A stretch of DNA of 44,981 bases from Rhodocyclaceae bacterium (lineage in GTDB: Bacteria; Pseudomonadota; Gammaproteobacteria; Burkholderiales; Rhodocyclaceae), in the NCBI GenBank assembly GCA_020445665.1, contig JAGRGD010000309.1, forward strand, positions 1-44,981. The letters run 5' to 3'. Made by a program: the position numbers and the translations under genes. This document shows positions 16,521 through 44,981 of the stretch, piece by piece. Position 1 is the stretch's first letter, and the number at the start of each line of letters is the position of its first letter. The notes under the pieces were generated by a model. It was given only the letters and a program-made list of their open reading frames with translations. It was not told where the DNA came from and did no database searches.

Positions 16521-16861
16521 CGGGAGGGAGGCGGCGAGGAGGCTCAAGGCTTGGAGCGGATGGGCGGGGCGCAAGGGGCAAAGTCTGGTGCAAGCGCCAT
16601 GCCAGTGAAAGGGGGGCAACGTGACGGAATGCCAAATTTCTGCTGCAGCCGGCGCTGAAAACCGGCGTCACACCGGGCTTTGTTTCAATGTGGAGCAACT
16701 GGCAAGTTTCGGAGCACCTGCACCCGAGGTGCCGATCAGGCTGAGGCGCGCGCCCTGCAGCGACCCGGCACACCGAAGCGTATGGTCCGCCATGCGAGCG
16801 CCGACAAGCCATTGCGGGCGATTCCGATGACGCGCGTCTGGCGATTTTCGCGAGATCGGGG

Positions 16862-16875
16862 CGGAAAATTTCCCG
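16862..16875. promoter_or_regulatory. palindromic element upstream of the dehydrogenase promoter
   Basis: CGGAAAATTTCCCG is a near-perfect palindrome ending 11 bases before the GG of the sigma-54 -24 box. An almost identical perfect version (18947-18961) stands in the same relation to the kinase promoter. Position and recurrence suggest a binding site for a shared regulator. It is too close to the promoter to be a classic sigma-54 enhancer. Confidence 0.55.
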
Positions 16876-16883
16876 ATTCGGCG

Positions 16884-16901
16884 TTTGGCATGTCCCTTGC
16901 G
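16884..16901 (+). promoter_or_regulatory. sigma-54 promoter of the PQQ alcohol dehydrogenase
   Basis: TTTGGCATGTCCCTTGC has GG (16887-16888) and GC (16899-16900) exactly ten bases apart, matching the consensus TGGCAYR-N4-TTGC. Transcription would start near 16912, giving a 65-base leader. Confidence 0.85.
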
Positions 16902-16977
16902 CAAATCGATTGGCACCCCGCACAGATCCACACCCGGGCGGTCGGGGACGCACCGAAAATAATGAGGAGGTATTTTG

Positions 16978-18759
16978 ATGAAAGACTGGAGCAAGACTTC
17001 CCCGGCCCGTGGCCTGGCCATGGGCGTCATCGCAGCCTCGGTAATGGCGTGGGGCGCTGCCTCCGCTGGCGTGACCGACGCGGACATCCTGAACGATGCC
17101 AAGACCACCGGCGACGTGGTGTCCTTCGGCATGGGCACCCAGGGGCAGCGCTACAGCCCGCTGGACAAGGTCAATACCGGCAACGTGACGAACCTGGTGC
17201 CGGCCTGGACCATGTCCTATGGTGGTGAGAAGCAGCGTGGCCAGGAGGCCCAGCCGCTGATCCACGACGGCCGCCTGTTCGTGACCGCCTCCTACAGCCG
17301 TCTGTTTGTCTTTGATGCCAAGACCGGCAAGAAGCTCTGGAAGTATGAGCATCGTCTGCCCGACGGCATCATGCCCTGCTGCGACGTGGTTAACCGCGGC
17401 GCCGCCCTGTACGACAACCTGGTCATCTTCGGCACCCTCGACGCCCAGCTCCTGGCCTTCGATGTCGAGACCGGCAAGCGCGTGTGGCGTGAAAAGGTGG
17501 ATGAGTACTCCGCCGGTTACTCCATGTCGGCTGCACCGATCATCGTCAATGGGATGGTCATCACCGGCGTGTCGGGTGGCGAATTCGGCGTGATCGGCCG
17601 CCTCGAGGCGCGTGACGCCAAGACCGGCAAGCTGAAGTGGATCCGCCCGACGGTGGAAGGCCACATGGGCTACACCTTCGACGCTGCCGGCAACAAGAAG
17701 GAAAACGGCATCTCCGGCACCAAGAACGCCACCTGGCCGGGCGACCTGTGGCAGACCGGCGGCTCCGCCACCTGGAACGGCGCCACCTACGATCCGGAAA
17801 CCAACCTGATCTTCGCCGGCACCGGCAACCCGGCCCCGTGGAACAGCCACCTGCGTCCGGGCGACAACCTCTTCTCGTCGTCCACGGTTGCGATCAACCC
17901 GGATACCGGCAAGATCGTCTGGCACTACCAGAACACCCCGCACGACGGCTGGGACTATGACGGTGTGAACGAGTTCGTGTCCTTCGACTACAAGGATCCG
18001 AAGACCGGCAAGACCATCAAGGCGGGTGGCAAGGCCGACCGTAACGGCTTCTTCTTCGTCAATGACCGGACCAACGGCAAGCTGCTGAACGCCTTCCCGT
18101 TCGTCAATGGCATCACCTGGGCCAAGAAGATCGACCTGGCCACCGGCCGCCCGGTGTTCGACGACGCCAACCGTCCGGGCAACCCGGCATCCGGCGACGG
18201 CAAGAAGGGCGACATGGTCTTCGCGGTGCCGTCCTTCCTGGGTGGCAAGAACCAGATGCAGATGGCCTACAACCCGAACACCGGCCTGTTCTACGTGCCG
18301 TCGAACGAGTGGGGCATGGAGATCTGGAACGAGCCCGTGTCGTACAAGAAGGGCGCGGCCTACCTGGGTGCCGGCTTCACCATCAAGGCGCTGCACGAAG
18401 ACCACATCGGCGTCCTGCGCGCCGTGGATCCGGTCGCCGGCAAGATCGTCTGGGAGCAGAAGAACTACGCTCCGCTGTGGGGGGGTGTCCTGACCACGGC
18501 TGGCGGCCTGACCTTCTACGGTACGCCGGAAGGCTACTTCAAGGCCCTCGACGCCAAGTCCGGCAAGGAGCTGTGGAGCTTCCAGGTCGGTACCGGCATC
18601 GTCGCGCCCCCGGTCACCTGGGAGCAGGACGGCGAGCAGTACGTCGCCGTGTCGGCCGGCTGGGGCGGCGCTGTCCCGCTGTGGGGCGGTGACGTCGCCA
18701 AGCGGGTGAACTACCTCGAGCAGGGTGGTTCGGTCTGGGTCTTCAAGCTGCACAAGTAA
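16978..18759 (+). CDS. PQQ-dependent alcohol dehydrogenase, lanthanide type
   Basis: A 593-residue periplasmic quinoprotein of the methanol/ethanol dehydrogenase family that oxidises alcohols to aldehydes and passes electrons to cytochrome c. Signal peptide ends near Ala30. The vicinal disulfide Cys134-Cys135 (MPCCDVV), tryptophan-docking propeller repeats and the active-site segment [11 protein letters not shown] are present. Catalytic Asp326 is followed at +2 by Asp328, the extra ligand seen in lanthanide-dependent XoxF, ExaF and PedH; calcium enzymes carry Ala or Ser there. Sequence outside the motif looks more like the ethanol-type (ExaF/PedH) branch, but substrate is inferred. The ATG at 16978 has GAGGAGG eight bases upstream. 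Transcribed from a sigma-54 promoter and followed by two hairpins. Confidence 0.95.
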
Positions 18760-27479: not shown

Positions 27480-29438
27480 ATGCGGCTCGGGACCGTCCGC
27501 CGTCTGGCGGCCTGCCTGCCGGGCCTTGCCCTGGCCGCCGGCATCGCGGCCGTCACTCCGGCCGCGGAGGCAGCGTCGCTGTTTCGCGGCCTGCTCGGGC
27601 CGGATGCGGTCGTGCCGTTCCCGATCGACCGCCTGCTGGTGCGGATCGGCCAGGAGCTGGCGCCGGACGCGCCCTTCGGCGGCCTGCCGCTGGTGCTGAT
27701 CCCCCTCGGCCGCTCGCTGCAGCGCCACGCCGCCGGCGACGCCGACTACTTCCGCTTTCCACGCGTCGTCGTCGCGGTCACCGGAGAGCCCCGCGACACC
27801 AGCGCGCCCCTGCTGCGGGATCGCCTCTACCTGGGCTATCACGAGAAGGCCGCGGTCCTCGAAGTCATCAGCTACGACCCCGCCGCGGGGCGCTTCGTCT
27901 TCGAGGTGGTGGATGACTACCGCGCCGGTGGCAAAGCGCGCCTGCGCCGTGGCAACCGCAGTCTGTGCGTCGCCTGCCATCAGAATGACGCGCCCCTGTT
28001 CCCGCGCCAGACCTGGGACGAAACCAGCGCCAATCGGAGCGTGGCGGCGCTGCTCGGGCTGACCGGCAGGGACTACTACGGTCTCGACTGGCGGCGCGGC
28101 GTGGACGTGGCCAACGCCATCGACGATGCCACCGACCGGGCCAATCTGCTGTCCGTCGCCCAGCGCCTGTGGCAGACCGGCTGCGGGCCGGGCGCGGCCG
28201 GGCGCGCCTGTCGCGCCGAGCTGTGGTGGCTCGCGCTGCGGGGGCGCTTCACTGGCCTGCCGCCCCAGGACGCGGAATTCGAGACCCCCGCGCTGGCCCC
28301 GTTGCAGCAGTGGTGGCGCGGGCTCCAGGGCGGGCTCGCGGTTCCGAACCCCGACATCCCCAACCGCCTGCCCTTCTCCGCGCTGCCCGCCGAGGCGCTC
28401 GCGCATCTCGACGCGTCGGCGCTGCGGCGGGCGGCTGACGTGGGCGCGCCGTTCGACGCCCTGGCGCTGCGAGAACCCCTCGAGCACTGGCAGGTCTCGG
28501 CTCCCGGCGCCCTGGCTCGTGCCGTGGCGGCGGTCGGCGCCTTTCTCTCCGACGCTGATGTCCGGGCACTTGCTGCGCGGACCCGGGGCGGCACCGCGGA
28601 GGTCGAGAGCGAAGCCCTCCGCTGCGACCGCCAGTCCCGCGGCGCACGGGAGGATCTGCGCTGCTGGTCGGGCACCACCCTGCGGATGACGGCCCGCCGG
28701 ACCGGCGATCGGCTGTGGGTCGACCGCCTCGTGCTGCCCGGTGGCATGGTCCGCTACGGCCTGGCCTTCGCTGCCGATGGCGACGATTTCGTGGCCGAGG
28801 GCGTGCCGGCGCGGACCGGCTCGGGCTTTTCGCTACAGCGACTGCACCTCGCGGGCGCACGCCTCGAATGGTCGCTGGTCGACGACCTGGCGCCCCTCGC
28901 CGCTTCGATTCGCGCCCTCGCGGTGGACGACGGCAGGGACGCGGCGCGGGCCCTGTCGCAAGGGGTGCTGAACCGGCGCGAACTGCTCGCGACGCTACTG
29001 GAGGCGACGGACCTGCCGGCACCGGTTGCCGCGTCCGTCGCGCAGCAGCCGGCCAATGCGCCGGTCGGTCGCGCCGAGCCGACCGCGCCCGATCTGGTCG
29101 TCTTCTTCCGCCGATGCGGCGGCTGCCACAGTGACGCCGATGCCTATCCGCCCGACTTTCTGCATGGCCGTGAGACGCGGGTGCGCAGCCGCCTCGATAC
29201 CTGCGCGCCGCGCATCTGGCAGCGGCTCCAGGCCTGGGGCCAGGCCCCGTCCGCCCGCGCCAAGACGCCGATGCCGCCGCCGGCCAGCGCCCAGTCCGGA
29301 GGATTCGCGGCGTCGGCCGAACTGGCCGAGATGCGGCGCTTCCTGGCGGCCCGCCTGCGCGCCGGCGGCCAGCCACCCGAACAACTCGACACCATCGCCT
29401 ACGCCGACCTGCCGGCCTGCGCCAGCTACCGACCATGA
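27480..29438 (+). CDS. di-heme c-type cytochrome, uncharacterised
   Basis: A 652-residue exported protein with signal peptide (cut near AEA at residue 31) and two heme motifs, CVACH (163-167) and CGGCH (546-550). The N-terminal part contains NDAPLFPRQTWDET just after the first heme. The middle is proline- and arginine-rich with no recognised domain. The unusual 380-residue spacing between hemes resembles the large cytochrome upstream (267 residues). The start codon is four bases past the lipoprotein stop, and its end overlaps a possible start of the next cytochrome, indicating translational coupling. Confidence 0.8.
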   Translation: MRLGTVRRLAACLPGLALAAGIAAVTPAAEAASLFRGLLGPDAVVPFPIDRLLVRIGQELAPDAPFGGLPLVLIPLGRSLQRHAAGDADYFRFPRVVVAVTGEPRDTSAPLLRDRLYLGYHEKAAVLEVISYDPAAGRFVFEVVDDYRAGGKARLRRGNRSLCVACHQNDAPLFPRQTWDETSANRSVAALLGLTGRDYYGLDWRRGVDVANAIDDATDRANLLSVAQRLWQTGCGPGAAGRACRAELWWLALRGRFTGLPPQDAEFETPALAPLQQWWRGLQGGLAVPNPDIPNRLPFSALPAEALAHLDASALRRAADVGAPFDALALREPLEHWQVSAPGALARAVAAVGAFLSDADVRALAARTRGGTAEVESEALRCDRQSRGAREDLRCWSGTTLRMTARRTGDRLWVDRLVLPGGMVRYGLAFAADGDDFVAEGVPARTGSGFSLQRLHLAGARLEWSLVDDLAPLAASIRALAVDDGRDAARALSQGVLNRRELLATLLEATDLPAPVAASVAQQPANAPVGRAEPTAPDLVVFFRRCGGCHSDADAYPPDFLHGRETRVRSRLDTCAPRIWQRLQAWGQAPSARAKTPMPPPASAQSGGFAASAELAEMRRFLAARLRAGGQPPEQLDTIAYADLPACASYRP

Positions 29439-29446
29439 GGCCCGCC

Positions 29447-30964
29447 ATGAAAAAGGATCCAACCGATACCCCGCCCGTCACCGGGGGCTGGCGCCGCCTG
29501 GCGCTGCGCACCCTGCTCTGGGCACCCTGGGCCATCGCCCTGGTGGTCGGGCTGGACCTGGCCAGCCGCTTCCTGGCCGACGAGCCGGTCGGGTACGGCA
29601 GTCCGGCCGAGCACTTCAAGTACGGCTCCACCGGCGGCGAGCGGGAGTCGGGCTTTCCCTACTGGATCTGGCAGGCGCTGCCCCAGATCTGCCCGGAGTC
29701 CCTGCCGGGCGAGGGCTACGCCTCCCTCGGCATGATCTACGAGCCCGGCAAGGACCTGCCCGTGGGCGTCTCGAAGCGCTTCCACCTGGGCATCGACCGG
29801 GTCTTCCTGAATTGCGCCGTGTGCCACACCAGCACCGTGAGGGACGCCCCCGATGCGCCGCCCCGGCTGGTGCTGGGCATGCCGGCCCACCGCTTCGACA
29901 TCCGCGCCTTCGAGACCTTCTTCTTCGAGTGTGCCTCGAGCGCGCGCTTCCGCTCCGAGTACATCGTGCCCCAGATCCAGGCCATGGGCGGTGATCTCTC
30001 GTGGCTGGACCGCAACGTCGTCTATCCGGTCGCGATCGGCCTGATGCGGGAGCGCCTGCTGATGCTCAAGGAGCGCTTCGACTTCGTCTTCGACCAGCCG
30101 CCCTGGGGCCCGGGCCGGGTGGACACCTTCAACTCCGCCAAGGTGCTGTTCAACTTCCCGATGCACCAGCTGCCCGAGAAGGAACTTCTCGGCGCGTCGG
30201 ATTTCCCGTCGATCTGGCTGCAGGGGCCGCGCATGCTGAGGGACGACGGCGAGCGTATGGAGCTGCACTGGGACGGCAACAACACCCACACCGAGGAGCG
30301 CAACAAGAGCGCCGCCTTCGGCACCGGCACCACCCCGCCGACCATCGACCTGCGCGCCATTGGTCGCGTCGAGGACTGGCTGCTCGACCTCGCGCCGCCG
30401 GCCTGGCCCTACCCGGTCGATGCCGCGCAGGCCCAGCGCGGGGCCGCGCTCTACGCCGAGTACTGCGCCGGCTGCCACGGGGCCGGCGGGCGGGACTTCA
30501 GCGGCGCGCGGGTTGGCCACGTGACGCCCATCGCGGACATCGGCACGGACCGCTCGCGGCTCGACTCCTATACTTACGAGCTGGCGGTGAACCAGGCGAC
30601 CCTGTACGCCGGCTACCCGCACCGCTTCCGCCACTTCCGCAAGACCTTCGGCTACGCCAACATGCCCCTGGACGGCGTCTGGCTGCGCGCGCCGTACCTC
30701 CACAACGGCTCGGTGCCGACCCTGCGCGACCTCCTCGAGCCGGCGGCCAGCCGCCCGGTGACCTTCTTCCGCGGCGACGACGTCTATGACCCGACCCGGG
30801 TCGGCTTCCGCTCGGACCGCGCCGCCGACGGCGACACGGCCTTGTTCCTGTTCGATACGCGCCTGCCGGGCAACGGCAACCAGGGCCACGAGGGCCACGC
30901 CTATGGCACCGAGCTGGCGGCGTCGGACAAGGACGCCCTCGTCGAATTCCTCAAGACCTTCTGA
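29447..30964 (+). CDS. membrane-anchored di-heme cytochrome c, paralogue 1
   Basis: A protein of 505 residues with an N-terminal membrane anchor (ALRTLLWAPWAIALVVGLDL) and heme motifs CAVCH (123-127) and CAGCH (340-344). The C-terminal part has [19 protein letters not shown], typical of the di-heme peroxidase and RoxA-like cytochrome superfamily. It is clearly homologous over its length to the next gene. ATG 29447 has GAGG six bases upstream. An in-frame ATG at 29435 overlaps the previous stop (ATGA) and is the alternative start. Probably periplasmic, tethered to the inner membrane, and redox active; substrate unknown. Confidence 0.85.
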   Translation: MKKDPTDTPPVTGGWRRLALRTLLWAPWAIALVVGLDLASRFLADEPVGYGSPAEHFKYGSTGGERESGFPYWIWQALPQICPESLPGEGYASLGMIYEPGKDLPVGVSKRFHLGIDRVFLNCAVCHTSTVRDAPDAPPRLVLGMPAHRFDIRAFETFFFECASSARFRSEYIVPQIQAMGGDLSWLDRNVVYPVAIGLMRERLLMLKERFDFVFDQPPWGPGRVDTFNSAKVLFNFPMHQLPEKELLGASDFPSIWLQGPRMLRDDGERMELHWDGNNTHTEERNKSAAFGTGTTPPTIDLRAIGRVEDWLLDLAPPAWPYPVDAAQAQRGAALYAEYCAGCHGAGGRDFSGARVGHVTPIADIGTDRSRLDSYTYELAVNQATLYAGYPHRFRHFRKTFGYANMPLDGVWLRAPYLHNGSVPTLRDLLEPAASRPVTFFRGDDVYDPTRVGFRSDRAADGDTALFLFDTRLPGNGNQGHEGHAYGTELAASDKDALVEFLKTF

Positions 30965-30976
30965 ACGGAGCCGGCC

Positions 30977-32449
30977 ATGACCTGGATCGATTGCACCTCG
31001 CGCCGCTGCCGTCGCTGGATCACCGCCCTGTGCGTGCTGGTGCTGCTCGGCGGTCTCGCCGCCGCCTGGGGCTGGTACGCCTTCTTCCACGAGGAGCCCC
31101 AGCCGGCGTGGATCACCGAAGACCCCGAGATGCGCTTCAAGTACGGCTCGATCGGTGCCGAGAACGACGCCGGCATCCCGTACTGGATCTTCTACGTGCT
31201 GCCGCGGATGTTCCCCGAGAAGCTGCCGGGGCCGGGCGGCTACGCCAGCTTCGGGGTGGCCTGGGAGGAGGGCATGGAGCTGCCGGTGGGCTTCACCAAG
31301 AAGACCATCGGCTTCCCCCGGGTGGCCAACACCTGCGCCGTCTGCCACACCGGCAGCTACCGGGTCAGCGAGGACTCGAAGCCGGTCTTCGTGCCGCTGG
31401 CGCCGAACCACACCCTCGACCTCGCCGCCTTCTTCCGCTTCCTGATCGACTGCGCCAGGGACCCCCGCTTCAACCCGGACAACCTGATGCGCGAGATCAA
31501 CCTGGTCACCGACCTGTCCTTCGTCGATGGGCTGATCTACCGCTTCGTGCTGATCCCGATCACCCAGAAGCGCCTGCTCGAGCGCGAGGAGCAGTTCGCC
31601 TGGCTCTACCACCCCGGCTTCCCCGACTGGGGGCGGGGGCGCGACGACGCGATGAACCTGACCAAGTACTTCATGATCCGCTGGCCGATGGACGACACCT
31701 TCGGTCCCACCGACATGCCGTCCCTGTGGAACCTGGGCAAGTACCGGCCCGAGGCCGGCATGCGCATGAACTTCGCCGGGGACAGCCATGACGCCTACTC
31801 GGTGCTGATCGACTCCGCGCTGGGCCTGCTTGGCGCGCCGCCGAAGGACAACGCCGAGTTCCTCGCGCACATCGACTGGATGCTCGACTACTTCAGTGCG
31901 CAGAAGGCGCCGCCCTATCCGTTCCCGATCGACCGGACCCGGGCGGCGCGGGGACGCGAGGTGTTCCTCGCCGAGTGCGCAGCCTGCCATGAGAGCGCCC
32001 GCACCGGCACCGTGGTGCCGGTCGCCGAGGTGGGCACCAGCCGCGACCGCCTCGACACCTGGAACGAGCGCGCGGCGCGGGAGGCCAACGCGGTGGTGGA
32101 TGAGATGGGCATCGAGCGCAAGGGCCTGGTGGAGGCACCGCTGACCGGCTATGTGGCGGCCTTCCTCGACGGCATCTGGATCCGCGCGCCCTACCTGCAC
32201 AACGGCTCGGTGCCGACCCTGCGCGACCTCCTCGAGCCGGCTGCGCTGCGGCCGGTGCGCTTCCGCCGCGGCTACAACGTGTATGACCCGGCGCGGGTCG
32301 GCTTCGTGACCGAGGGGGCAGAGGCCGAGCGTATTGGCAGCCTGCACGATACCCACCAGAAGGGGGGCGGCAACCAGGGCCACGAGTACGGTACGGGTCT
32401 GGGCGAAGCGGACAAGCAGGCCCTCGTCGAGTACCTCAAGACCCTGTAG
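30977..32449 (+). CDS. membrane-anchored di-heme cytochrome c, paralogue 2
   Basis: A 490-residue protein with N-terminal anchor ([20 protein letters not shown]) and heme motifs CAVCH (120-124) and CAACH (334-338). It shares with paralogue 1 the FKYGS-xG start of the periplasmic domain, PYWIxxxLP, the heme spacing and the [19 protein letters not shown] segment, so the pair arose by tandem duplication. [12 protein letters not shown] segment near the C-terminus is also shared. It starts 12 bases after paralogue 1. Its 3' end overlaps the convergent hybrid-kinase gene by 14 bases. Confidence 0.85.
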
Positions 32450-34337: not shown

Positions 34338-36185
34338 TCAGGCGGGGGCTTCGGACTGGCGCAGCTTGCGGTACAGCGTGGTCCGGGTGATCCCCAGTTC
34401 GCGGGCCGCTGCGGACACGTTGCCGGCATGACGGTCGAGGCACTCCCGCACCAGCCGCAGTTCCGCTGCGCGCAGGTCGCCACCCGGCAAGGGGGGCTGG
34501 GGTGGCCGGCTGGCGTGGATATCGATGCTGTCCTCCGGCAGATGGTCCGGTCGCAGGGCGGCCTCATCGGGGCCGAGCATCGCGATCGCCACCCTCAGGA
34601 CGTTGCGCAGCTGGCGCAGGTTGCCTGGCCAGGGCTGTCGTCGCAGCAGTTCCCGGGTCTCCGGCGCGATCTGGACGGCCCGGCTGGGGCTCTCGTCGTC
34701 CACCACCCTTGCCACTAGCGCGTCAAAGTCGGCCCGCTCGTGCAGGGGCGGAAGCCACACCGTGAGGCCGTTGAGGCGGAACAGCAGGTCGGCGCGGAAG
34801 CGGCCGTCGGCCACCATCTGCTGCAGGGGGCGGTGGCTGGCGCAGACCAGGCCGATATCCACCGGCACCTCCTCGCTGGCGCCGAGGGGGACCACCGCCC
34901 GCGTCTCGAGGACGCGCAGCAGGACGGCCTGCAGCGCCAGCGGCATGTCGCCGATCTCGTCCAGGAACAGGGTGCCCCCATGGGCCTCGAGGATCTTGCC
35001 CCGGGCTCAGCGGGCGCGGGCGCCGGTGAAGGCGCCGGGGGCATAGCCGAACAGTTCGGCCTCGATCAGCGTGGCCGGGATCGAGGCGCAATTGACGGCC
35101 ACCCAAGGGGCATCCCGGCGCGGGCTGCTGCGGTGGAAGGCGCGGGCAAACCACTCCTTGCCGCTGCCGGTCTCGCCCTGGATCAGAAGCGGGATGTTCC
35201 GATCTGCAATCTTGCGGGCGCGGTCCACCGCGATCCGCATCCGGGCGTCGCCGTGCTCCAGCTCATCGAAGCCGTCGTTGCCCTGTACCGGCGCCGTCGC
35301 CGACAGGGAGCGGGGCCGCCGGCGTGGCGCGGCCCGCAGCCGGACCTGGGCGGTCAGCCAGCGGCCCTGGCGGGTGCGCAGTTCGAGCGGCTGGCCATCG
35401 GCCGGTGAGGCCAGCAGGCGCCGCCACTCGGCGTCGAAGCTGGCTTCGAAGGAGGGCAGGGCGTCGAGGCCCCGCAGCCCCAGTTGCTGTCGTGCGTTGC
35501 GGTTGCAGGCGAGCATCTGGCCCGCCTCATCGAAGACCGCGATCGCCTCCAGCGGACTGCCGAGCATTTCCGGGTAGGGGCTGAAATGCATCGAGACATG
35601 GCCGTCGCCCATGCTCTCCAGCAGTCGGTGCTCGATCATCTCCGCGGTGGAGTGCAGCAGCGCGCGGGCATGGGGGAGCGAGACGCGGACATCGCTGGAG
35701 AGGTCGAGGATGCCGAGCATGCCGCCCGACGGGGCGTGGATCGGTGTGGCGATGCAGGTCAGGAAGCGATTGCGCTCGAGGTAGTGCTCGTCCGCCATGA
35801 CCGACACCGTGCGCGACTCGTGAATCGCCGTGCCGATGGCGTTGGTGCCCATCTGCGCTTCGGCCCAGCCGGCGCCCGGCATCAGCGCCACGCGCTGGGC
35901 GCGTGACACGAAGCTCCCGTCGCCCACGGCACGCAGGATCAGGCCCTCCCGGTCTGCGAGCAGCACCATCGAGGCGTCGTGGTCGAGCTGGCCATGGAGA
36001 TGCTCGATGATCGGCTGGGCATAGGTCACCAGGCGGGCGTTGGCCTCCAGGCGCTCGGCGAGCAGCGCCCGGTCGACCGGTTCACTGCCTAGCGGGCTGT
36101 CCGTCGCGAGGCCCTGCTCGGCACAGCGTGTCCAGGACGAGCGGATCAGGGGGTCGCGGGGAGGGACCGGGTCGGGGCGGCTCAT
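34338..36185 (-). pseudogene. AcoR-type sigma-54 activator interrupted by an in-frame TGA
   Basis: A 616-codon frame encodes an AcoR-family enhancer-binding protein. It begins with a GAF-type sensor half (SSWTRCAEQGL through GMLGILDLSSD), then an AAA+ domain with Walker A GETGSGKE and GAFTGA, and ends in a Fis-type helix-turn-helix (NVSAAARELGITRTTLYRKL). Codon 393 is TGA (35009-35007), six residues after GAFTGA, where relatives usually have glycine (a GGA to TGA change). The frame continues perfectly on both sides. The product would stop before Walker B and the DNA-binding domain. ATG 36185 is chosen by fit to the family start; ribosome-binding site is poor. A sequencing error is the simplest rival explanation. 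Confidence 0.85.
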
Positions 36186-36198
36186 GGGGCCCGGATCT

Positions 36199-36214
36199 GC
36201 AGGAAACATGCCGG
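36199..36214 (-). promoter_or_regulatory. possible sigma-54 promoter of the AcoR-type gene
   Basis: On the minus strand CCGGCATGTTTCCTGCAG has GG and GC ten bases apart (36212-36211 and 36200-36199). The match is good but the implied start near 36187 would give a nearly leaderless message with the chosen ATG, so either the start or the promoter call may be wrong. Confidence 0.4.
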
Positions 36215-36323
36215 ATTGCGCGGTGGCGTGCCGCGATCCGGAGAATCGCGCGGCACCTTGGCCGACGCAGCCGAAGCGCCGGGCAGGGCGGTGCGGTGCG
36301 TGCCCCGTCCGGCGTGACCGCTT

Positions 36324-36361
36324 GCGCAACACCTGTCCCAAAACGGGTCACTCCGTTGCGC
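36324..36361. promoter_or_regulatory. operator-like site 1 (TGTCCC-N5-GGGTCA) in a nested inverted repeat
   Basis: TGTCCCAAAACGGGTCA (36334-36350) is an imperfect palindrome. It is enclosed by a second inverted repeat, GCGCAAC (36324-36330) and GTTGCGC (36355-36361). The same 17-bp core occurs upstream of both sigma-54 promoters near 38 kb. Probably the binding site of the adjacent AcoR-type activator. Confidence 0.6.
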
Positions 36362-36575: not shown

Positions 36576-37871
36576 ATGATACGAACCTTCCAGAGCCTGA
36601 CATCGCGTTTCCGCCTGTCCCTCGCGCTCGCGGCGGCCGCATTGCCGTTCGTGACCGTGCTGGTGTTCGCGAACGTCTGGGTGTACGGGCCCATGCAGGA
36701 CGACCTGCAGGTCATCTCCGACGAGATCCAGGCGCGCTTCGAGGAAGTCGGCAGCCTGCAACTGCTGCTGGCCCAGAGCGCCATGCCGCCCAACGATTTC
36801 CTGATCCACGGCGGCAGCGACGAGCGCATCCGTTTCGAACTGATGGCGGGGCGCATCGAGAGCATCTTCGGCGACCTGATGCGCTCGACCTCCGTCGCGC
36901 ACGCGGAGGAGCAGCGTCGCCTGAGCGACATGGTGCAGCGCTGGGCCGTGGCGCGGAAGATGGGCGACGCGCTGCTGACCTGGCCGCCGGAGACCCGCCT
37001 GACGGAAGGGGCGGTGGTCATGGAGCGCTTTGACCGGGAGCTCGACCAGCTGACCGAAGACGCAGAAGCGCTGCTGGCCCATGTCCGGGTCGAACTCGAG
37101 GGCGCGCGCGATCAGTCGATCAAGCGGCGCCACGACCTCAACCGGTTCGTCGCGCTCGCGACCGCGATGGCTGGCATTCTCACGCTGGTGCTGATGACGC
37201 TGCTCGGGCGCAACGTCGGCGAGCCGCGCACGGTGCGGCGCAGCGTCGCGCAGCCCCCCTCCTTGCCCCCGTCGCCGAGCCCGCCGAAGGAAGAGGCGCC
37301 CGTGGAGGCGCTTGCGGACGAGCAGCCCTCACCCCGCCAACTGGAGAGCCCGCCAGCGGGCGAGCCAGCAGTCGATCCCTTGACCCGCCTGTGGAGCCGC
37401 GGCAGCCTCCAGCGCCAGCTCGCCATCGAAACCGAGCGGGCGATGGTGCTCGAGACGCCGTCGTCGATCGCGATCATCGAGATCGATGGATTCGACAGCC
37501 TCGAGGAACGCTACGGCGAGGCCGCGGTGGTGCCGGTTGTGCTCGCGGTCTCCGAGCGTCTTCGCCACATCATTCGCAGCACCGATTTCCCGGCTCGCTC
37601 GAATGCCGGCGAGTTTGCCGTCCTGATGCCGGCCACCGATCTGCGCCAGGCGGTGGAACTGGCCGATCGTCTGCGCCGGGAGGTGGCAGACGCGCCGGTT
37701 TCGATCGGGCGCCGCACGGCGTCGATCACGGTCAGTATCGGCGTGGCAGGTGACGGTGTCGGCCGCGCCGGCCAGGTCGGCGCCTCGACGCTGCTGGGGC
37801 GGGCGGATCAGGCGATGCACCGCGCCCGACGCGCCGGCGGGAACCGGGTCGAGCGCAGCGGCGTCCGCTAG
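36576..37871 (+). CDS. membrane protein with degenerate GGDEF domain
   Basis: A 431-residue protein: transmembrane helix (about 15-37), periplasmic domain (38-190), second helix (about 191-210), a proline-rich linker and a GGDEF domain (about 265-431) beginning DPLTRLWSRGSL. The catalytic loop reads Asn343-Ala-Gly-Glu-Phe in place of Gly-Gly-Asp/Glu-Glu-Phe, so diguanylate cyclase activity is unlikely. It may bind a partner or nucleotide as a sensor. The stop codon TAG is part of the CTAG that borders the palindromic insertion, so the original C-terminus may have been altered. It is divergent from the AcoR-type gene. Confidence 0.85.
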   Translation: MIRTFQSLTSRFRLSLALAAAALPFVTVLVFANVWVYGPMQDDLQVISDEIQARFEEVGSLQLLLAQSAMPPNDFLIHGGSDERIRFELMAGRIESIFGDLMRSTSVAHAEEQRRLSDMVQRWAVARKMGDALLTWPPETRLTEGAVVMERFDRELDQLTEDAEALLAHVRVELEGARDQSIKRRHDLNRFVALATAMAGILTLVLMTLLGRNVGEPRTVRRSVAQPPSLPPSPSPPKEEAPVEALADEQPSPRQLESPPAGEPAVDPLTRLWSRGSLQRQLAIETERAMVLETPSSIAIIEIDGFDSLEERYGEAAVVPVVLAVSERLRHIIRSTDFPARSNAGEFAVLMPATDLRQAVELADRLRREVADAPVSIGRRTASITVSIGVAGDGVGRAGQVGASTLLGRADQAMHRARRAGGNRVERSGVR

Positions 37872-37924
37872 GGTCTGTGGACATTTGTATGGCGATCCGC
37901 CATACAAATGTCCACAGACCCTAG
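37868..37924. mobile_element. 49-bp palindromic insertion flanked by CTAG
   Basis: Two perfect 23-bp inverted arms (37872-37894 and 37898-37920) separated by ATC, bordered on both sides by CTAG. Each arm begins GGTCTGTGGACATTTGTATG. The CTAG copies fit the YTAR-type target duplication of IS5-family elements. No transposase fits inside, so this is a minimal miniature element or two fused insertion-sequence ends. The same end recurs at 44932. Confidence 0.8.
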
Positions 37925-38033
37925 GGCGCGACCGGCCTTCGCGCGGGCGCCGCGCCGGGGGGCTTCCGAATTCAGTCTCCCTGTCTTGTGGCGGCGCGTC
38001 GCCACGTTCGGCAACGCTGCGCACTGGAGCACC

Positions 38034-38050
38034 TGTCCAGAATCGGGTCA
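38034..38050. promoter_or_regulatory. operator-like site 2
   Basis: TGTCCAGAATCGGGTCA, with the preceding CACC, matches site 1 at 17 of 21 positions. It ends 81 bases before the GG of the sigma-54 promoter at 38132, a normal enhancer distance. Confidence 0.6.
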
Positions 38051-38129
38051 GCCCGTGGTGCCCGGTCAGGCGTGGGCAATCGGCCGCAATGCCTTGCCCC
38101 GCAAGGGATCTGGGCGTTCGGCAGAGATT

Positions 38130-38146
38130 CCGGCACGCGTCATGCA
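38130..38146 (+). promoter_or_regulatory. sigma-54 promoter of the putative small RNA
   Basis: CCGGCACGCGTCATGCA has GG (38132-38133) and GC (38144-38145) ten bases apart and the GGCACG core. Predicted start 38152-38158, with no ribosome-binding site or credible reading frame downstream. Confidence 0.7.
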
Positions 38147-38152
38147 TTAAGA

Positions 38153-38309
38153 AAATCGTGGATGTGGGTTGTCGGGCGGCCCTCCCTCTACCGCCCTGCG
38201 CCTCGATCCGCGCCTCTCATGGCGCTGCGAGTCCGACCGCCGGCATCCACGATTTCTCCCTCCACGGCGTAGCTTAGGGGCGGCCCGCAGAGCGGGCCGC
38301 CCGATTTTT
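38153..38309 (+). ncRNA. putative sigma-54-dependent small RNA
   Basis: A segment of about 157 bases runs from a sigma-54 promoter to a strong terminator. A long-range stem pairs AAATCGTGGATG (38153-38164) with CATCCACGATTT (38244-38255). Inside it, hairpins form from GGGCGG/CCGCCC (38174-38179, 38191-38196) and from GCGCC/GGCGC (38210-38214, 38221-38225) extended by CTCG/CGAG, making a branched structure. A 37-codon frame from ATG 38162 has no ribosome-binding site and does not look like PqqA. If transcription starts at 38157, the first bases of the long stem would be missing. Function unknown. Confidence 0.5.
38278..38309 (+). terminator. rho-independent terminator of the putative small RNA
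   Basis: A perfect 11-bp stem GGGCGGCCCGC / GCGGGCCGCCC (38278-38288, 38292-38302) with loop AGA, followed by GATTTTTC. Confidence 0.9.
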
Positions 38310-38370
38310 CCCGACGCCGTCCTTCCCCGGATCCAGATCGCCCGCCCGAGCGAGACATGCGTGCCGGACA

Positions 38371-38387
38371 GGTGTCCCAGTTCGAGA
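38371..38387. promoter_or_regulatory. operator-like site 3
   Basis: TGTCCCAGTTCGAGACA is the third copy of the 17-bp pattern. It ends 88 bases before the GG of the ABC-operon promoter, the same arrangement as site 2. Confidence 0.6.
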
Positions 38388-38473
38388 CAGTCTGCGTCAT
38401 CCGGACGCGTCGGCGAGCCGGCCGGGCGGGCCGAATCCGGGGCATGCCGGGGGCTCGGGAAGATATCCCGACG

Positions 38474-38490
38474 TTGGCACGTGGCTTGCA
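38474..38490 (+). promoter_or_regulatory. sigma-54 promoter of the ABC transporter operon
   Basis: TTGGCACGTGGCTTGCA is a full match to the sigma-54 consensus, with GG at 38476-38477 and GC at 38488-38489. Expected start near 38501. Confidence 0.92.
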
Positions 38491-38571: not shown

Positions 38572-39558
38572 ATGTTGCGTCGTTTGCCCCTCGCGGGTCT
38601 GCTGGCCGTCATTCTGGCCGTCCTCTTGTCTGCTCACGTCCGCGCAGAGGGGGCGACGCTGCGCGTGGGTGTCCTGAAGTACGGCACGGTCAATTGGGAG
38701 CTGGACGTGATCCGCCACCATGGCCTCGACCGGGACAACGGCTTCACCCTCGAGATCACGCCGCTGGCGCTGAAGGATGCCGCGGCCGTCGCGGTTCAGG
38801 GCGGGGCGGTGGACATCATCGTCAGCGACTGGCTGTGGGTCGCGCGCCAGCGCGCGGAAGGGCGCCTGTTTTCGTTTGCGCCATATTCCCGTGCCGAGGG
38901 CAGCCTGATGGTGCGACCGGACGCCGGCGTGACGACCTTCGCCGATCTGAAGGGCAAACGCCTGGGCGTCGCCGGGGGCGCCCTCGACAAGAGCTGGCTT
39001 TTGCTGCGCGCGTACGCGCGGCAGCAGACCGGCACCGACGCGGCCGAACTGGTCGAACCCAACTTCGCTGCGCCGCCGCTCCTCAACCAGCTGGTCCTGA
39101 AGGGGGAACTGCCGGCGACCCTCAACTTCTGGCATTTTGCCGCGCGCCTCGAGGCCGCCGGCATGCGGCGCCTGCTCAGCATCGACGAAGTGCTCGGCGG
39201 CCTCGGCATCGATCGCGAGTTGCCGATGGTGGGCTGGGTGTTCAAGGAGGACTGGGCCGAGGCGAACCGGGCGGCAGTGGACGGCTTTCTGCGCGCCTCG
39301 GATGCCGCCAAGGCCATCCTGCGCGACTCGGACGCCGAGTGGGAGCGGCTGCGCCCCATGATGAAGGCCGAGGACGAGGCCACCTTCGTCGCGCTGCGCG
39401 AGGGCTTCCGGGCCGGCATTCCGCAAGCAGGCGTCGAGCAGGCAGAACGCGCGGCACGGCAGGCCTACGGGGTGCTGGCACGCGAGGGCGGAGAAGCGCT
39501 GGTCGGCAAGGCCACGGAACTGGCGTCCGGCGTGTTCTGGCGGACCGCGGCGCAGTGA
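38572..39558 (+). CDS. NitT/TauT-type ABC transporter substrate-binding protein
   Basis: A 328-residue periplasmic binding protein with signal peptide (cut near HVRA, residue 25). The body has the features of the nitrate/sulfonate/taurine group: LRVGVLKYGTVNWELDVI at the start, VDIIVSDWLWVA and FADLKGKRLGV. The ligand is unknown. It could be an alcohol-oxidation product, a cofactor or a chelate. AAGGAAGGAG precedes ATG 38572. First gene of a seven-gene sigma-54 operon; its TGA overlaps the GTG of the permease. Confidence 0.88.
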   Translation: MLRRLPLAGLLAVILAVLLSAHVRAEGATLRVGVLKYGTVNWELDVIRHHGLDRDNGFTLEITPLALKDAAAVAVQGGAVDIIVSDWLWVARQRAEGRLFSFAPYSRAEGSLMVRPDAGVTTFADLKGKRLGVAGGALDKSWLLLRAYARQQTGTDAAELVEPNFAAPPLLNQLVLKGELPATLNFWHFAARLEAAGMRRLLSIDEVLGGLGIDRELPMVGWVFKEDWAEANRAAVDGFLRASDAAKAILRDSDAEWERLRPMMKAEDEATFVALREGFRAGIPQAGVEQAERAARQAYGVLAREGGEALVGKATELASGVFWRTAAQ

Positions 39559-44931: not shown

Positions 44932-44981
44932 GGTCTGTGGACATTTGTATGGCGGTCGCGCTGTGGTCTGCTGGGTTCGAG
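44928..44981 (+). mobile_element. left end of an insertion element, cut by window edge
   Basis: CTAG followed by the same 23-bp end as the element at 37872 (begins GGTCTGTGGACATTTGTATG, 44932-44954). The sequence then diverges from the palindrome, so this is the end of a longer element that continues outside the window. No coding region is visible in the last 27 bases. Confidence 0.7.

Follow-up and report, generated by a model that had tools for sequence, protein, structure and literature searches.

Sigma-54-driven small RNAs are already known, CrcZ, Qrr and GlmY among them. In the parts of the reports available, Qrr and GlmY have sigma-54-dependent promoters with enhancer-binding activators (PMC10162802, PMC6075780), and CrcZ, CrcY and CrcX of Pseudomonas depend on RpoN and an enhancer and are tied to carbon-source use (PMC8657755). 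NfeR1 / alpha-r14 of rhizobia, as described in the available text, exposes anti-Shine-Dalgarno motifs CCUCCUCCC, unpaired, in three hairpins whose stems have diverged; most of its target candidates are ABC transporters, and its sigma-70 promoter comes with LsrB/NtrC (PMC10746234). According to the available sections of a further report, S17 of Bordetella pertussis and bdhR1 (RF02278, Burkholderia) pair with ribosome-binding sites through C/U-rich single-stranded sites, have a terminator and involve Hfq, and S17 lowers many transporter genes as well as a sigma-54 activator (PMC11722255).

Here we describe a predicted small RNA of the Rhodocyclaceae that resembles several of these systems in part. 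With NfeR1, as far as the accessible text goes, it shares identical unpaired anti-Shine-Dalgarno motifs, while the NfeR1 motif, promoter and host are different. With S17 and bdhR1 it has in common the betaproteobacterial host, the C/U-rich single-stranded sites and the intrinsic terminator, but these RNAs have, in the portion of the source at hand, a sigma-A promoter, RNase E processing and another gene neighbourhood (PMC11722255). Qrr and GlmY belong to different bacteria and signals (available parts of PMC10162802 and PMC6075780), and CrcZ, CrcY and CrcX, unlike our candidate as we read it, antagonise Hfq/Crc and have a response regulator, CbrB, as activator (available part of PMC8657755). 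We consider it likely that the segment is the gene for an enhancer-dependent, trans-acting sRNA of about 155 nt, which belongs to a PQQ/alcohol regulon and masks ribosome-binding sites via the motif CUCCCUC.

Results

The window, that is, the whole stretch of 44,981 nt that was analysed, had been predicted to hold an alcohol-oxidation locus. It does encode a PQQ methanol/ethanol dehydrogenase gene (16975-18759), a PQQ-ADH ABC system (PQQ_ABC_bind, PQQ_ABC_ATP and PedC; TIGR03863, TIGR03864 and TIGR03861), a beta-propeller partner gene and a GAF/sigma-54 activator gene. The latter (34338-36341, minus strand) reads as two pieces of 444 aa and 202 aa because of a frameshift in the assembly, with its AAA+ domain interrupted around 34946-35007, and is either an assembly error or a broken gene. 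Its closest NCBIfam model is DhaR, with a score below the cut-off, and we take it to be AcoR-like. Two tandem genes of the RoxA-like di-haem cytochrome c peroxidase family adjoin the alcohol locus (29435-32449). The features that bear on the predicted RNA are as follows (window coordinates).

16711..16900, plus strand: ahead of the PQQ alcohol dehydrogenase gene, an activator-like site at 16711-16724 and, with 1 mismatch, a sigma-54-like site at 16886-16900; each match weak alone
36576..37871, plus strand: GGDEF gene (Pfam PF00990, G000 and four siblings), the upstream neighbour throughout
38026..38040, plus strand: putative upstream activator site GGAGCACCTGTCCAG, with the core CACCTGTCCAG at 38030-38040
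38131..38145, plus strand: putative sigma-54 promoter CGGCACGCGTCATGC, GG-N10-GC with 2 mismatches, kept in homologues
38155..38309, plus strand: predicted small RNA of about 155 nt (covariance model matches in 5 genomes; folding z -4.3)
38153..38255, plus strand: closing helix P1, arms about 38153-38173 and 38235-38255; 7 of 16 pairs changed on both sides among 5 sequences
38174..38196, plus strand: hairpin A, 6 GC pairs with an 11-nt loop CCCUCCCUCUA that holds CUCCCUC (38182-38188); stem pairs invariant
38202..38231, plus strand: hairpin B (CUCG...CGAG)
38256..38277, plus strand: mostly single-stranded CUCCCUCCACGGCGUAGCUUAG with the second CUCCCUC (38256-38262)
38278..38309, plus strand: intrinsic terminator, 11 bp plus T5; hairpin then T-run in 5/5
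38475..38489, plus strand: sigma-54 promoter of the ABC operon, perfect (0 mismatches), also in four siblings
38572..39558, plus strand: ABC substrate-binding protein (SBP) gene, NMT1-like, constant downstream neighbour

The region 38151-38312 is conserved together with its promoter in 5/6 genomes of the genus, which are Rhodocyclaceae MAGs: G000, to which the window belongs, G001, G002, G003 and G005. All five carriers have the same order of GGDEF gene, activator site, sigma-54 site, RNA, terminator and SBP gene, and the sixth member, G004, is without the stand-alone RNA and without the SBP gene too. That the segment stands immediately upstream of the SBP gene in 5/5 genomes, and that in three siblings the SBP sigma-54 promoter comes directly after the terminator with no separate activator site seen there by eye, would fit a structured 5' leader or terminator/attenuator of the ABC operon, in which transcription from 38131 controls read-through into the SBP gene. 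We find this unlikely: in G000 and the four siblings the SBP gene has a perfect sigma-54 promoter of its own past the terminator, the conserved parts of the segment include exposed motifs, and no alternative antiterminator fold was noticed in an unsystematic inspection by eye. The preferred reading stays that of an independent sRNA gene, for which conservation of the RNA, of the promoter and of the activator site, as well as fold, motif exposure and hfq presence, were computed.

Outside the genus the stand-alone RNA fades quickly. BLAST of 61 genomes gave strong matches in the own genus only, the others being 22-34 bases long with E of 0.0026 or worse. A covariance model built from four sequences recovered the fifth, and the five carriers score 126.9-173.4 bits, four of them having trained the model; the best other match among 395 family genomes reached 25.9 bits. 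With a five-sequence model over 399 order genomes G000 scored 151.2 bits and the only other matches had 31.0 and 29.0 bits; the family and order searches cover samples drawn with strict filters. We rejected the weak matches (up to 25.9, and 31.0 and 29.0 bits) as homologues, as by eye they are terminators after coding genes or coding-looking stretches. Two of them carry CUCCCUC before the terminator, namely G085 (25.9 bits), which is an exaC 3' UTR and was the starting point of the exaC analysis below, and L019 of G281 (24.5 bits), where the motif precedes a GC-rich terminator after a gene whose end resembles, by eye, an ammonium transporter. The latter case indicates that the pairing of CUCCCUC with a terminator is not strictly confined to exaC, and the pair may serve further regulons.

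A GG-N10-GC promoter was part of the original prediction and is present at 38131-38145. On the window sequence alone it is no better than chance (49 sigma-54 matches with up to 2 mismatches versus 48.6 expected), and the case therefore rests on the relatives: GGCAYG-N5-TGC is found at the 5' end of the sRNA in 5/5 homologues, 100-102 bp downstream of the activator core. The operator-like site that had been proposed lies at 38026-38040, its core being identical in 5/5 homologues, and it is a predicted bEBP enhancer site of the type also found at exaC promoters. A single match of this kind is weak, since the scan over 12 positions finds six places in the window. The sites that precede the sRNA (38026), the PQQ alcohol dehydrogenase gene (16711) and, on another contig, exaC match at 10/12 positions. 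The sRNA had further been tied to the same activator site as the ABC operon; a TGTCC half-site is indeed in common, but the ABC site seen by eye at about 38366-38390 scores below 10/12 in the scan.

The aldehyde dehydrogenase used as query is ExaC, acetaldehyde dehydrogenase (NCBIfam 950.7 bits, cut-off 900), and exaC of G000 has the same kind of activator site and promoter as the sRNA. A match of the exaC type (E <=1e-240) occurs in 171/390 family genomes, from which 112 loci of 111 genomes were examined, mostly the best-scoring among the matches listed, with some listed ones skipped. Upstream of exaC a sigma-54 site (at least 8/10 positions) is found in 90/111 family loci versus a shuffled mean of 6.9. 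An activator site like GGAGCA-N2-TGTTCC is found in 40/111 versus 1.65 in shuffles, with a consensus picked by eye from some of the loci later scored and shuffles that preserve single-base composition only. The presence of such sites at the sRNA, the PQQ alcohol dehydrogenase gene and exaC makes it most likely that the RNA belongs to the alcohol/aldehyde regulon, as judged from these sequence matches.

From the usual spacing of about 12 nt after the -12 GC, we infer that transcription starts at about 38155-38158, which coincides with the beginning of the conserved closing helix. The foldable segment of the original prediction (38150-38310) has a minimum free energy of -83.6 kcal/mol with z -4.3, and 0/200 shuffles are as low. 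The body has a strong folding energy in G000, G003 and G001 (z -4.6, -4.98 and -2.19) and an unremarkable one in G005 (z -1.05) and G002 (z 0.26), the minimum-energy structure of G002 being a different fold. An 11-bp terminator with T5 had been claimed as well, and the intrinsic terminator found there has an all-GC helix (38278-38302) with T5 at 38305-38309.

Both copies of CUCCCUC are present in 5/5 sRNAs, the first, in the loop of hairpin A, with a mean unpaired probability of 0.97-1.0 and the second, before the terminator, with 0.75-0.85. Two occurrences per about 160 nt compare with 9 in 400 kb of family DNA, both strands. Such an exposed CU-rich motif is what a trans-acting sRNA of the anti-Shine-Dalgarno type would be expected to carry. 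It is improbable, in our view, that the RNA is instead a CrcZ-like protein sponge, whose repeated pyrimidine motifs titrate an RNA-binding protein with no mRNA pairing: two identical unpaired motifs, an enhancer-dependent promoter and the carbon-source context agree with it, but there are just two motifs and they are pyrimidine-rich. The Hfq/Crc motifs of CrcZ are A-rich, and we know of no betaproteobacterial protein with specificity for such pyrimidine motifs. The comparison with CrcZ, made already in the original prediction, is apt as regards the promoter class, but neither as regards the motif nor the way in which the RNA probably acts; the exposed motifs here are CUCCCUC, and no Rfam match above threshold links the RNA to the CrcZ family.

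Compensatory changes, proposed as a check on the stems of the sRNA, were looked for among the homologues and found at 7 pairs of five related sequences, all in the closing helix (shuffled mean 2.8; 1/500 shuffles as high). In the structure as a whole, pairing holds for 91.8% of cells. Covariation scores 0.179 versus 0.111 shuffled (0/500) and at most 0.064 with slid partners, to be read with the fact that the structure comes from the same alignment of five related sequences, and such sequences may beat shuffles without structure; the covariation is modest. That the segment encodes a small peptide is highly improbable: GTG/ATG frames of 35-39 aa are closed within it in G000, G003 and G002, mechanical frames overlap it in G000 and, for G003 and G001, continue into the SBP gene, but the closed frames of G005 and G001 have 19 aa only, indels separate the homologues and base changes track helix pairing, and since the short frames are not conserved, coding is unlikely and the earlier statement that no gene fits agrees with the lack of a conserved ORF. 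Taken together, promoter, activator site, a fold with both-sided base changes and terminator in 5 genomes support the predicted sigma-54-driven structured sRNA, as far as sequence comparison goes.

No Rfam family reaches its gathering threshold anywhere in the window. Of the weaker matches, mmgR/suhB RF00519 (27.5 bits, threshold 41) appears in the sibling G005 and one exaC 3' UTR, with none listed for G000, and SorY RF02651 (23.8 bits, threshold 111) in an exaC 3' UTR only. Like the sRNA, both have a GC terminator after a CUCCCU or CCUCC stretch; the similarity by covariance model is weak. The model of the betaproteobacterial toxic sRNA RF02278 gave no match at E up to 5. The sequences of Qrr and GlmY differ from that of the sRNA. 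Among the publications listed for Azoarcus, Aromatoleum and Rhodocyclaceae, and for UTR-derived sRNAs together with aldehyde dehydrogenase, none describes the sRNA.

Sub-threshold miRNA matches at 37862-37934 were rejected, as they arise from a perfect palindrome with 27-nt arms around ATC (37868-37924), which overlaps the end of the GGDEF gene and recurs at 44932-44954. Its core GGTCTGTGGACATTTGTATGGCG has 52 copies in G000 (27 forward, 25 reverse), frequently some 100 bases from where a contig starts, is found twice in G003 and has 0 copies in the other four genus members. We read it as a palindromic repeat specific to the species, at which the assembly seems to break.

The motif and terminator also occur together at the 3' end of exaC. 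A covariance model applied to 73 loci around relatives of the SBP gene returned the four siblings and weak matches (15.0-25.7 bits) in eight Aromatoleum/Azoarcus loci; these eight are exaC 3' UTRs with CUCCCUC before a GC-rich terminator, all upstream of an SBP-gene relative. CUCCCUC lies between the exaC stop codon and a T-run in 32/112 loci from 8/29 genus groups, G004 included. Among the 89 exaC loci with a T-run within 200 nt it is present in 32, versus 2.6 on dinucleotide shuffling, where 100 rounds gave at most 7; L147 was scored negative although it has the motif, because an earlier T-run cuts its stretch. Counted by terminator, the motif accompanies 30/79 exaC terminators, 0/11 other terminators of the same loci and 0/22 terminators of control DNA (400 kb from eight family genomes), which gives a Fisher p of 1.3e-4 for exaC against control. 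The sRNA class of this comparison required the motif, so that its 5/5 holds by construction, and the double motif in the five was counted separately. A general habit of these genomes to join motif and terminator found no support in 0/33 other terminators, a small control.

Other elements were seen in the same 3' UTRs. In L118, L119, L120, L122 and L123 the stop codon is separated from the CUCCCUC terminator by one or two near-copies of the last bases of the gene (GCGCTCGG-TTCTTCTGAGCGCG), each of which can form a hairpin with a pyrimidine-rich loop; these copies are absent in L121, L171, L178 and L182. L131-L136, L140-L142, L144 and other g61 loci have, in place of the CUCCCUC module, a conserved element GTAAGGCAAGGTGTTRCGGGGCG with a terminator, CUCCCUC being found in 0/16 g61 loci.

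Within the genus the two forms are distributed in a complementary way. The exaC 3' UTR is readable in three carriers of the stand-alone RNA, G000, G002 and G005, and is without motif and T-run in each; in G004, with no stand-alone RNA, it has both. In G001 the contigs end, and in G003 neither an exaC at the level of E <=1e-240 nor a DUF779 neighbour was found. This pattern of three plus one genomes suggests, from sequence, that the stand-alone RNA has replaced the 3'-UTR form.

Discussion

The sRNA might work in the following way, for which we infer transcription, activator identity, Hfq binding, repression and targets. A GAF-type sigma-54 activator would bind 38026-38040 and let sigma-54 RNA polymerase start from 38131-38145 during alcohol/aldehyde oxidation, and the transcript would terminate at 38309. 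The closing helix and the two hairpins would form a rigid scaffold that presents one CUCCCUC in the 11-nt loop, the second one being single-stranded before the terminator. By pairing with GAGGGAG-type ribosome-binding sites where translation of the target mRNAs starts, with Hfq as a probable partner, these motifs would block the loading of ribosomes. Since CUCCCUC is complementary to ribosome-binding sites of this type, pairing with translation start regions, and hence masking of the ribosome-binding site, appears to be the most likely mode of action on the structure model. Hfq is encoded in 6/6 genomes of the genus.

A pattern search for targets (GGAGGGAGA-N2-10-ATG) in 5 genomes gave 8 matches versus 4 for the reversed control, 2/8 being the antisense of the sRNA itself, and thus no clear enrichment and no convincing target set. 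The best lead is the DUF779 gene directly after exaC in G000 (GGAGGGAGAACCATG; Pfam PF05610), whose candidate site is only imperfectly matched in G002 and G005, with little left of it in G004.

Functionally, the sRNA is probably akin to the CUCCCUC-terminator element at the exaC 3' end of many Rhodocyclaceae, and could correspond, as a stand-alone gene, to a 3'-UTR sRNA. In MAFFT alignments of the exaC 3' UTR module the motif does not line up across the variable spacers, so module and sRNA may be homologous or may have converged. As a tentative scenario, possible though we would not bet on it, the module left the exaC mRNA in this genus, acquired an enhancer and a sigma-54 promoter of its own within the regulon it came from, duplicated its seed and was lost from the exaC 3' UTR. 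If true, this would be a natural case of a 3'-UTR sRNA that becomes an independent gene with its signal unchanged.

In Rhodocyclaceae the sRNA would be an additional, RNA-based layer of the PQQ alcohol/aldehyde regulon. With a stand-alone gene in five genomes and an exaC 3' UTR form in many others, it would offer a testable case for how 3'-UTR sRNAs become independent, a question that can be addressed by experiment since the 3'-UTR form is present in strains of Aromatoleum and Azoarcus.
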